Shown: in pieces, positions 23,991 to 49,077 of the stretch | How the letters are laid out: every line of letters begins with the position of its first letter | Numbering within the stretch: the stretch's first letter is position 1 | From: Bacteroidota bacterium | Lineage (GTDB): Bacteria > Bacteroidota > Bacteroidia > Chitinophagales > Chitinophagaceae | Length of the DNA: 64,000 bases | Direction of reading: 5' to 3' | NCBI GenBank assembly: GCA_025363385.1 | Contig: JANYEA010000100.1 | Coordinates: forward strand, 1-64,000 | Translations under genes and position numbers: made by a program | The notes under the pieces: generated by a model | Seen by the model: only the letters and a program-made list of their open reading frames with translations | Databases searched by the model: none | Told to the model about the DNA's origin: nothing

Positions 23991-24209
23991 TTATTTTTTT
24001 TCTAGCTTACTAATCTTTTTATCGAGACTGTAAACATATAATAGTAACCCAATCACTATAAACACAACGATTGTCATTACCAAAAAAATTCTTCCATTAC
24101 TACGCATTAAATCATTGCTATTGGCATCTGTTACTGCTGCTTGTGCATTTGCAACAACCTGATAGCAGGCAAATACAAAAAACAGGATCCACTTTTTTAA
24201 ATTATTCAT
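23991..24209 (-). CDS. CcmD-like small membrane protein
   Basis: A 72-residue protein with a cleavable-looking leader (WILFFVFACYQVVANAQA), a second hydrophobic span (IFLVMTIVVFIVIGLLLYVY) and a short Lys-rich tail (LDKKISKLEKK). Bacteroidota CcmD homologues have this shape and help release heme-loaded CcmE. Identification comes mainly from position: it overlaps the ccmC 3' end by 8 bp. Sequence similarity to proteobacterial CcmD would be slight. Confidence 0.75.
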   Translation of the reverse strand: MNNLKKWILFFVFACYQVVANAQAAVTDANSNDLMRSNGRIFLVMTIVVFIVIGLLLYVYSLDKKISKLEKK

Positions 24210-24882
24210 TGTTTAATTGCTTTTCGTTTAAAATTTGATACCTAACACTTAAAGTTGAAATCCATACACCTAATAAGGTCCATCCTATCACAGCAGGATA
24301 AAAAACAGTTCGCATATGCATATCCATGTCTTTTCCATTAATACCGGGATTGCCTTCACTACCCTGCCCGCCTGGGTGTAATGATTCAGTTAAACGAGGC
24401 AGGATCCACAGGGTAGGGAATAACATAAAAAATGCGAAAATATTGTAGACTGCCCCAATACGCATTTTCTTCTCTTCATCATGCATACTACCCCTCAATA
24501 CGAAATAAGCTAGATATATTAATATGGCAATGGCGGCTCCATTTTGTTTGGGATCTCCACTCCATGGGCTACCCCATTGGTAATTAGCCCAGATGGCACC
24601 AGTAAAAATGCCCAACAATGAGAAAATAGTACCCGTTGCAGCAAAGGCATTCGAGTAAAAATCGTACAACGGATTGGGGGTTCTTAAATACTTTACAGCA
24701 TAATAAACAGAGACAAATAATAAAACCATCATTCCAAACCACATGGGCACATGGAAGAAGAAATTTCGAACAGATTCCTGCATCCGATCGTCCATTTTAG
24801 GGATTTTCACATAAAACCCGTAGGTGCAGGTATACATTAAAAGAACGATTGCCAAGGCTTTCCACCAAAATTTTCGAATCAT
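24202..24882 (-). CDS. ccmC: Cytochrome c biogenesis heme-handling protein CcmC
   Basis: A 226-residue integral membrane protein with six hydrophobic segments. The tryptophan-rich WANYQWGSPWSGDPKQNGAA matches the WGxxWxWD heme-binding signature of the CcmC/CcmF/CcsA family, and histidines flank it (FFFHVPMWFGM before, TESLHPGG after). CcmC loads heme onto CcmE at the periplasmic face. It is cotranscribed with the CcmD-like gene downstream. Its start region faces queA across a 245-bp gap that contains a candidate structured leader. Confidence 0.92.
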   Translation of the reverse strand: MIRKFWWKALAIVLLMYTCTYGFYVKIPKMDDRMQESVRNFFFHVPMWFGMMVLLFVSVYYAVKYLRTPNPLYDFYSNAFAATGTIFSLLGIFTGAIWANYQWGSPWSGDPKQNGAAIAILIYLAYFVLRGSMHDEEKKMRIGAVYNIFAFFMLFPTLWILPRLTESLHPGGQGSEGNPGINGKDMDMHMRTVFYPAVIGWTLLGVWISTLSVRYQILNEKQLNNE

Positions 24883-25021
24883 ATATATATATTTTCTTTC
24901 CTTTTTTTCAAACTAACAAATGTAAGCGCAAATTTAGGTGAAAGGGCACCAATAATTAGCATCAACGTGTAAAATTTACCTGTTGTTCTTGTTAAAAAAA
25001 GGTTTAAACAGGATTATACCT

Positions 25022-25029
25022 TACCTTTG
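25022..25029 (+). promoter_or_regulatory. Candidate Bacteroidota -7 promoter element upstream of queA
   Basis: TACCTTTG fits the TAnnTTTG consensus exactly. No TTTG-type -33 box lies at the ideal 17-23 bp; the nearest TTG is about 30 bp upstream. A start near 25035 would give a leader of about 93 nt before queA. Confidence 0.45.
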
Positions 25030-25042
25030 CCAACTTCCAAAA

Positions 25043-25108
25043 TTCATGCCGTAACATGAAGTTAGTGCGTCCTACTCAGGTGGGATAACAACTGATTGTG
25101 GCTATCAT
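25043..25108 (+). ncRNA. Candidate structured 5' leader RNA of queA
   Basis: Between the predicted promoter and the queA ATG there are two perfect stems: TTCATG/CATGAA around a CCGTAA loop (25043-25060), and TCCTAC/GTGGGA around a TCAG loop (25070-25085) flanked by AGTT (25060-25063) and AACT (25090-25093). An alternative outer helix, CATGAAGTT (25055-25063) with AACTGATTG (25090-25098), includes tandem G-A mismatches, and GCC/GGC could close it. I do not recognise a known riboswitch class; it does not match the preQ1 motifs I know. Confidence 0.35.
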
Positions 25109-25127
25109 TCAAAAATAGAATAGACAC

Positions 25128-26177
25128 ATGAAATTATCACAGTTCAAGTTTGACCTTCCGTTAAACCTTATTGCCCAGAACCCGACCAAAAAAAGAGAAG
25201 ACAGCCGAATGATGGTTGTTGATCGTAAAACCGGGCATATGGAAAACAGACATTTTCGCGACATCTTAGAGTATTATGACGACAAGGATGTGTTTGTTGT
25301 AAATAACACAAAAGTATTTCCGGCAAGAATGTACGGCCGTAAAGAAAAAACGGGTGCAAAGATCGAAGTATTTTTATTGCGTGAGTTAAATAAGCCCAAC
25401 CGTTTATGGGATGTAATCGTTGATCCCGCAAGAAAGATTCGTGTAGGTAACAAATTATATTTCGGAGACAATGAAGAACTGGTTGCAGAAGTAATCGACA
25501 ACACAACAAGCCGTGGACGTACCATTCGTTTTTTATGGGACGATGATGATGAGAGCTTCAAAAAAATGTTGGAATTTTTAGGAGAAACTCCTTTGCCTAA
25601 ATACATCAAGCGTAAGCCAGATGAAGAAGATAAAGAACGCTATCAAACAGTTTATGCAAAGCATGAAGGTGCAGTTGCTGCTCCTACTGCCGGATTGCAT
25701 TTTTCTAAAGAATTGATCAAGCGTTGCGAAATTTTAGGTGTTCGTTTTGCAGAAGTTACTTTACATACCGGATTAGGTACTTTCCGTCCAATTGAAGTAG
25801 AAGATCTAAGCAAACATAAAATGGATGCTGAATACTATCAGATCAATGAAGAAGCATGTAAAATTGTAAATAAGGCTAAAGAAAACGGAAAAAGAATCTG
25901 TTCAATTGGCACCACCACCATGCGTGCCATGGAGAGTAGTTTTACTGCACAGAAGATGTTGAAGCCAAGTGAGGGATGGACTAATCACTTTATTCACCCA
26001 CCTTACACTTTTAATGTGGCTGATAGTTTGGTTACCAATTTCCACCTTCCAAAAACAAGTTTATTAATTATGACTTGTGCTTTTGCTGGATATGATTTAG
26101 CTATCGAAGCGTATAAAAAAGCAATCAAAGATAAATATCGTTTCTTCAGTTATGGAGATGCGTTATTAATTATATAA
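25128..26177 (+). CDS. queA: S-adenosylmethionine:tRNA ribosyltransferase-isomerase
   Basis: A 349-residue enzyme that transfers and isomerises the ribosyl group of SAM onto preQ1-modified tRNA, giving epoxyqueuosine in the wobble position of GUN-anticodon tRNAs. Signature stretches include [12 protein letters not shown] at the N-terminus, [16 protein letters not shown], the APTAGLHFS element and [14 protein letters not shown]. Length and motif order are normal. It is monogenic, with its own leader region and a strong bidirectional terminator shared with the convergent aspartokinase gene. Other queuosine genes are not in the window. Confidence 0.97.
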
Positions 26178-48775: not shown

Positions 48776-48913
48776 CGTATTGATTTTACTGTTTTGAATG
48801 AGAGGTAGTATCTGTTTTAGAAGTATGAGCCATAAGAAAGCTCTTTAATATCTTTTTTTTGATCTTCTTAGGACTCGCGAATATCTTACACCTATTCGCA
48901 AAAGAAAAAAAAT

Positions 48914-49010
48914 GGCAGGCTACTCACATCGCACCGCTCAACCACCTATCCTTGCTGTATTCCTACCCTGGGGAGATTCAGCAGGAGCTGGTCGTGTAAG
49001 ACCTGCCGCC
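48914..49010 (-). ncRNA. ffs: Signal recognition particle RNA (small bacterial type)
   Basis: On the minus strand a roughly 95-nt RNA begins GGCGGCAGG and ends CCTGCC, closing the long helix. The apical part reads CCCAGGGTAGGAATACAGCA: a GGAA tetraloop closed by GUA/UAC and flanked by the CAGG and AGCA strands that bind Ffh. An exact Bacteroidota -7 box (TACTTTTG on the minus strand, 49019-49012) puts the start within a few bases of the 5' end, and a T-rich tract follows the 3' end. The rest of the gap 48776-49077 shows nothing else. Confidence 0.92.
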
Positions 49011-49077
49011 GCAAAAGTAAGGTTTGGGCGTTAATTTTTTCGATTTTTTTTAAATGAATAGCAAAAAATTGCTTGAA

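Follow-up and report, generated by a model that had tools for sequence, protein, structure and literature searches.

The queA leader of Bacteroidia: a recurrent hairpin with a CYGUAA loop as a putative translational operator

The upstream region of queA in a 64,000-nt stretch of DNA from a member of the Chitinophagaceae (hereafter the window) was confirmed as a real queA leader, homologous to a catalogued orphan motif. Comparison of sequences showed that most of the relatives sampled, and several other families of the class, have a hairpin with a CYGUAA loop (CCGUAA or CUGUAA) and a freely changing stem on the queA start or 5' of it. Where the leader is long, a middle strand can, on the predicted pairings, join either the start region (helix P3) or, exclusively, the 3' arm of the first hairpin (helix P1). 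The best explanation, which we hold at slightly less than even confidence, is that the leader serves as a 5' UTR translational operator that gates the queA start and has a queuosine enzyme as its putative binder, QueA being the likeliest. As far as searched, the wide occurrence of the hairpin, its location on the start codon, the rival pairing of the start site and the anticodon-like loop are new.

The queA leader in the window and Rfam family RF03093

The queA gene, encoding tRNA preQ1(34) S-adenosylmethionine ribosyltransferase-isomerase (349 aa), occupies 25128..26177 of the forward strand and was identified by NCBIfam TIGR00113 and NF001140, both above cut-off. All of the leader features described below are on the same strand. 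Before the first hairpin is a TAnnTTTG box (TACCTTTG, 25022..25029), recognized from its sequence and from the upstream stretches of relatives, which we take to be the -7 promoter element of Bacteroidetes. Of 181 relatives, 174 had TAnnTTYG in the 60 nt preceding the first hairpin; in the control, the next 60 nt upstream, it was found in 12 of 177.

The first hairpin, H1 (25043..25060), reads UUCAUG-CCGUAA-CAUGAA with 6/6 pairs, and was assigned from stem 1 of RF03093 and an alignment of 44 sequences. Its invariant loop, CCGUAA (25049-25054), was the commonest 6-nt hairpin loop by far, and its 3' arm contains an AUG (25056..25058) whose position and context match the real queA start of short-leader species. 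The second hairpin, H2 (25069..25086), has 7 consecutive pairs including two G-U, a pairing probability of 0.998 and, here, a UCAG loop. In many relatives the H2 loop was CCGUAA or CUGUAA, and conservation of the TCAG loop was not seen in the relatives aligned.

The outer helix P1, supported by the alignment and a swap test, is formed by a 5' strand (25054..25063) overlapping the H1 3' arm and a 3' strand (25090..25099) overlapping the P3 5' strand; its mismatches are a tandem G-A (25058-25059 / 25094-25095) and a U-U (25057/25096). P3, supported by the alignment, the energy model and the swap test, joins the anti-start strand within the conserved tail (25097..25105) to AUAGACACA (25120..25128), whose last base is the A of the AUG that starts queA. 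The box, the two stems, the TCAG-capped stem and the outer helix with tandem G-A mismatches of the original prediction were therefore all present, with correct coordinates.

Three further observations were made in the window. The divergent gene upstream (24202-24882, reverse strand) encodes a CcmC/CcsB-like protein of cytochrome c biogenesis, scoring under both curated cut-offs. A Bacteroidales small SRP RNA (RF04183) was found at 48909-49015 of the reverse strand with 83.9 bits. The tail sequence UUGUGGC (25096-25102) is the same as the 7-base loop that carries the anticodon in tRNA-His of this genome, an identity that may be due to chance because UUGUGGC sits in a stem and not in a loop.

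As a single sequence, the window leader has a mildly unusual fold (z -1.54 and -1.87; 17 and 7 of 200 shuffles were equally good). Because this fold barely beats the shuffles, the case for the leader rests on comparison. At the DNA level, matches to the leader were obtained in 36 of 60 genomes, namely the genome itself and 35 of the 36 others of the genus, with 0 of 23 outside the genus.

In a permissive Rfam scan, positions 25043..25105 aligned with the queA RNA (RF03093) over model positions 1-59 of 59, at 52.5 bits and E 7.9e-9 against a gathering cut-off of 52.6. The gathering-level scan had missed this match by 0.1 bit, so the window leader is treated as a homologue of RF03093 and not as a formal member. 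The alignment covered both hairpins and the conserved tail, and the matched stretch lies upstream of queA. Thus, while no known riboswitch consensus had been recognized in the original prediction, a catalogued consensus fits the leader over its full length. The family presumably originates from the Weinberg 2017 motif survey. In a limited literature search no function of the queA RNA was described, although an earlier description is possible. The window shares the downstream gene, the first hairpin and the tail with RF03093; the model differs in that its tail is unpaired, it ends 22 nt before the AUG, P1 and P3 are absent and it is typed as an sRNA.

Within the genus, 114 of 147 genomes matched RF03093 at E <= 0.01 and 94 of 147 scored above the cut-off. 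Across the order, 8 of 198 genomes matched and 4 of 198 passed the cut-off. According to these counts the family looks confined to one genus, and the Rfam model represents the version that a single lineage has of a wider element. A further order-level match of 31.6 bits (L027) was rejected, as it lies where another gene starts and is probably a chance hit.

The CYGUAA hairpin before queA across the class

The upstream regions of queA in the family were fetched through the QueA protein alone. The sample consisted of the best 80 of 592 relatives in named contigs, the best 30 loci in 244 family genomes that were drawn, and 60 loci picked across genera from the listed upper part of that draw, and it leans to close relatives because it was built from best matches and that upper part. 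A start was found by script in 164 of the 170 loci, which gave 148 distinct regions.

A hairpin with a CCGTAA loop, counted when at least 4 pairs enclosed a 6-nt loop or at least 3 pairs an 8-nt loop, was present in 133 of the 148 distinct regions and absent in 15. Where 5 or more pairs enclosed a 6-nt loop, CCGTAA was that loop in 93 regions, whereas the next most frequent loop occurred in 4; among 8-nt-loop hairpins, GCCGTAAC (51) and GCCGTAAG (32) were on top. The antisense loop TTACGG was found in 0 of the 148 regions. Across the whole comparison, within and beyond the family, the stem sequences varied around the constant loop and included UUCAUG/CAUGAA, UUCAUA/UAUGAA, UUGAUG/CAUCAA, ACUUUUAAUAAA/UUUAUUGAAAGU and AAAAAUUA/UAAUUUUU. 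The structured RNA leader of queA originally proposed is borne out by the RF03093 match together with this recurrence before orthologous queA genes; a lack of conservation there, named at the outset as the observation that would speak against it, is clearly contradicted by the 133 regions.

Fifty further distinct regions were found via the motif itself and kept separate, and the pool amounted to 198 distinct regions. The hairpin contained queA's own AUG in 22 of the 198 (class A) and lay about 20 nt before the AUG in 3 (class B). Class C, to which the window belongs, comprised 89 regions with an upstream H1 alone and 17 with H1 and a second such hairpin, as judged by script. Only the second hairpin was present in 51 regions (class D/E), and 16 had no hairpin. 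Mapped on a tree of 118 QueA proteins, the split between class A and long leaders requires at least 7 changes, which suggests that the leader forms interconvert; the tree was built by FastTree only, with 43 of 115 inner branches open.

The sample from other families of the order and class included 109 loci: 40 were picked across the order's families, and 109 genomes drawn from the class supplied the best 29 and 40 more that were picked. A start was found in 93 loci, 90 of them outside the window's family. A CYGTAA hairpin within 90 nt of queA was present in 26 of these 90 regions, where dinucleotide shuffles would give 0.03; the 26 came from 12 of the 49 families sampled, and 64 of the 90 were without it. 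When only hairpins of 5 or more pairs lying within 80 nt were counted, the 93 regions gave the loop CCGTAA in 21 and CTGTAA in 4, and the next loop reached 2. Of three more remote members of the window's own family that the class search brought in, one had the hairpin, with a CTGTAA loop, and two did not. The stems differed among lineages, some of them recurring (e.g., AAAUC/GAUUU), and the distance from loop to AUG ranged from 8 to 89 nt in the 30 of 93 regions with at least 4 pairs. Outside the class but within the phylum, a CYGTAA hairpin of at least 4 pairs was found in 0 of 9 readable regions (15 outside-class loci among the 25 of L427-L451, 6 of them unreadable); the sole such hairpin among L427-L451, at L434, belongs to a genome of the class and was already counted. 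A one-genus RNA family can therefore conceal a wider element, of which the six-base loop is the most constant part.

A model of the hairpin was also searched against whole genomes, with at most 150 candidates scored per genome. In 6 genomes of the genus, model R1 gave 20 hits at E <= 10, of which 7 were at queA and 13 elsewhere (<=23.5 bits); the best hit was at queA in each of the 6. In 30 genomes of the family, 22 of 28 hits at E <= 0.1 were at queA, in 18 genomes. The 6 others, up to 25.2 bits, were each in a different genome; an open frame, read in sense or antisense, enclosed five of them but not L465. One of the 13 genus hits away from queA, near tgt (L259), was rejected as a tgt-leader element since it lies on the opposite strand, outside the tgt leader. 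A wider regulon is possible, because the candidates were limited per genome, the queA site was found in 18 of 30 genomes and 6 hits fell elsewhere. Several genomes of the order also carry a second QueA-like protein (e.g., G055:C44:2011-2850 and G181:C2:13368-14207) with 33-40% identity, in frames mostly of 408-454 aa and some of 357-365.

The start codon and the competing pairings

In class A, the 3' arm of the stem is the start codon itself, as in UUCAUA-CCGUAA-UAUGAA of Chitinophaga, and the 5' arm is changed to match. The lone 18-nt hairpin with the start codon was the entire conserved part in these 22 of 198 regions; 18-nt hairpins are carried by Chitinophaga and Sediminibacterium. Among the 106 upstream H1 copies, an AUG was kept in the 3' arm of 99, usually in the context ACAUGA, which resembles the true start ACAUGAAA. 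This AUG is possibly a former start codon that now serves as a decoy. The leaders of other families contain seemingly comparable copies of the start context; in L349, judged by eye, GUUUCAUA has two possible partners, UAUGAGAC in the hairpin arm and UAUGAAAC at the start. In L339 and L348, also of other families, an apparent decayed copy of the queA coding start was seen by eye 3' of the CYGUAA hairpin. Such decayed copies suggest repeated relocation of the start codon.

Two upstream ORFs were considered and ruled out. The frame AUG-CCG-UAA across the loop fails because its first AUG is AUA or AUU in class A relatives. A frame from the AUG of the H1 3' arm fails because this AUG is missing in 7 of 106 copies, and neither length nor frame is conserved: the ORFs from the 99 AUGs ranged in length from 2 codons to 54 (6 codons in 33 cases, chiefly near relatives, while 4 left the piece read) and fell into all three frames (44, 33 and 22).

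In 44 aligned class C leaders, 97.3% of the cells were paired in H1, 74.3% in P3 and 72.5% in P1, and two pairs of H1 were changed on both sides. The covariation score of H1 and P3 was above all 500 shuffles and that of P1 above all but 2, an excess that relatedness of the sequences alone could produce. H1 and P3 had no more further pair types than shuffles did (267 of 500 reached the same level), a shift of the partners by -3 columns left the covariation score nearly unchanged (0.070 vs 0.071), and slid versions of P1 had as many double changes or more. RNAalifold on this alignment returned only H1, and neither P1 nor P3.

For the pairing of the start, a swap test gave stronger evidence than the alignment covariation did. 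Each leader's own middle strand was compared with the strands of other species for its fit to the leader's own start region, on representatives thinned to 75% identity, among which relatedness partly remains. For P3 (n=75) the own strand reached -9.07 kcal/mol versus -7.55 for swapped strands, and in class D/E (n=48) -8.33 versus -6.37 kcal/mol, both with p 0.0002, the floor of 5000 permutations; the pairing of the start is in this sense specific to each species. The control segments, two per group, gave p 0.65, 0.14, 0.24 and 0.19. For P1, the own strand reached -6.37 versus -5.81 kcal/mol (p 0.0012). The middle segments used for P1 and P3 overlapped in 66 of 75 leaders, and the two helices therefore compete. 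A weaker result than the swap test came from the pairing of the start region relative to shuffles, with median ranks of 0.05 to 0.17 in the hairpin classes, 0.70 in the three class B leaders and 0.49 in leaders without hairpin.

In the energy model of the window, H1 (0.97) and P3 (0.90) form the predicted ground state, in which P3 extends only to the A of the AUG. P1 had a probability of 0.004-0.07, and forcing it costs 2.5 kcal/mol in minimum energy and 3.6 in ensemble energy. The resting state of the window leader is therefore probably closed. In the fold with P1 imposed, the start codon is taken up by the 5' arm that H1 releases, and so P1 alone need not mean the ON state.

In the operator that we propose, QueA in excess over its tRNA substrate would hold H1 closed. 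In short leaders, closed H1 would bury the AUG directly; in long leaders it would withhold its 3' arm from the middle strand, leaving that strand to pair with the start region. With little QueA present, or with QueA occupied, H1 could open, P1 would form and the start would be exposed. A protein holding H1 would keep the start closed in long and short leaders alike, and this logic fits both. Least certain in this scheme are which way the switch works and which protein binds. In its present form the cascade misfits class D leaders, which have no H1 and whose CCGUAA hairpin, by eye, does not overlap P1. According to the available text of PMC9976891, Shine-Dalgarno pairing is not generally used in Bacteroidia, and initiation relies on low structure around the start codon.

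The binder, other readings and known systems

QueA and TGT both act on the anticodon loops of queuosine tRNAs; TGT, a dimer, exchanges G34 of the same tRNAs. The tRNA-Tyr of the genome has the anticodon stem-loop ACAGA-CUGUAAA-UCUGU, and compared to six bases of its loop, CCGUAA agrees in 5/6 and CUGUAA in 6/6. Among the 29 tRNA loops that were compared, only that of tRNA-Tyr was within one mismatch of CCGUAA. A random hexamer would come within one mismatch of any of the four queuosine tRNA loops with a chance of 0.017-0.033, and of any tRNA loop with a chance of 0.09-0.17; given these figures and the fact that the likeness was noticed after the fact, it is suggestive only. Most leader loops have C at the place of U33 and 6 nt (8 with a G-G flank), versus 7 in the tRNA.

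The same operator might be bound by TGT or another RNA-binding protein instead of QueA, which we consider unlikely. The available text of two sources describes the minimal substrate of TGT as a 17-nt tRNA-Tyr anticodon hairpin with UGU in its loop (PMC10103133), and E. coli TGT as binding two hairpins, with tandem ones joined by a linker preferred (PMC13416341). The CUGUAA variants meet the UGU requirement, and a TGT dimer would suit the leaders with two tandem CYGUAA hairpins (17/198 by script, CCGUAA). However, the dominant loop CCGUAA is without the U before the G of the minimal motif, and CCGTAA, the only form searched for, was found within 150 nt before tgt in 0 of 20 Chitinophagaceae genomes. 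Since the element was not seen before tgt and most of the strong hits were at queA, QueA is the first choice of binder, with TGT or another protein next. In many of these 20 genomes (L268-L287), a promoter-like box ends a few bases before the ATG assigned to tgt by script; as the box almost touches the ATG, the tgt mRNA looks almost leaderless.

A metabolite riboswitch for preQ1, preQ0, SAM or a relative, with H1, H2 and P1 as the aptamer and P3 as the expression platform, is a poorer candidate and quite unlikely. The gene product does use SAM and preQ1-tRNA, and the exclusive structures, the tandem G-A and the conserved tail resemble a riboswitch layout. Nevertheless, no preQ1 or SAM family was among the Rfam matches up to E 10 at 24800-25200, and in classes A and B, as in other families, a single hairpin is all that remains of the conserved part. 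An 18-nt hairpin as the whole conserved part offers scant space for a metabolite pocket and suggests a protein or RNA partner. Of the regulation by preQ1, SAM or translation first suggested for this leader, translation stands as the likely level, and preQ1 and SAM are disfavoured by the lone hairpin and the lack of a family model match. A pseudoknot between the loop bases GCCGUA and the tail UGUGGC, possible in the window, was rejected by eye since tails of the Ferruginibacter type lack it and short leaders cannot form it.

It is a long shot, and an extension of the protein-bound operator, that the queA mRNA across Bacteroidia contains an anticodon-loop mimic that is read and maybe even modified by queuosine enzymes. 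TGT would insert preQ1 at the loop G of CUGUAA and QueA would act on it, and the start would sense the ratio of enzyme to unmodified tRNA via the decoy former start codon.

A passive or temperature-responsive start-codon structure with no specific partner is improbable. It agrees with the start region being more paired than shuffles in most hairpin classes and with H1 plus P3 as the predicted ground state, but such a stem needs no invariant loop, and here CYGUAA is constant across families while the stem changes. A separate small RNA located before queA by chance, in keeping with the Rfam type line 'Gene; sRNA', is very improbable: the element was at or closely upstream of the queA start in the regions examined, no terminator-like site was found in 24880-25130, and the element pairs with the queA start region. 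A DNA operator, with H1 as an inverted repeat near the promoter box bound by a transcription factor, is hardly credible, as it would keep its arms and free its spacer, whereas in these leaders the arms change around a constant, strand-specific spacer (no TTACGG loops in the 148 regions), and H1 lies downstream of the box.

If the protein-bound operator is correct, an orphan Rfam motif would gain a function, a tRNA modification enzyme would exert autogenous control via anticodon mimicry, and start-codon gating would be shown in bacteria that generally work without Shine-Dalgarno pairing.

Among known systems, the preQ1 riboswitches of classes I-III are described in the available text of PMC11625349 as pseudoknots that occur with queCDEF, queT and yhhQ. 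They share with the queA leader the position in leaders of queuosine-pathway genes, and several of them act on translation; unlike them, the window gave no match to their models. The TGT substrate hairpin ECY-A1 / RNA-TAG, as far as the available text of PMC10103133 and PMC13416341 goes, is taken from the tRNA-Tyr anticodon loop, to which the leader loop bears a suggestive likeness, and is favoured in tandem copies, which some leaders have. It differs in its UGU, which is missing from the CCGUAA of the window and most relatives and is provided by CUGUAA in 4 of 93 other regions. A yeast aminoacyl-tRNA synthetase is likewise described as acting on its own mRNA (available text of PMC6542539).

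The leader can further be compared with thrS-type operators. The thrS operator of E. coli is a case of autoregulation by an anticodon mimic. The queA leader differs from it in that the enzyme is a modification enzyme, the loop has 6 nt with C in place of U33, and binding is putative. In both systems, the mRNA of a tRNA-acting enzyme would carry a likeness of the anticodon loop of its tRNA, a suggestive one in the case of queA, and this element is at the translation initiation region, with the AUG inside the hairpin in the class A leaders and the start paired in the long leaders.
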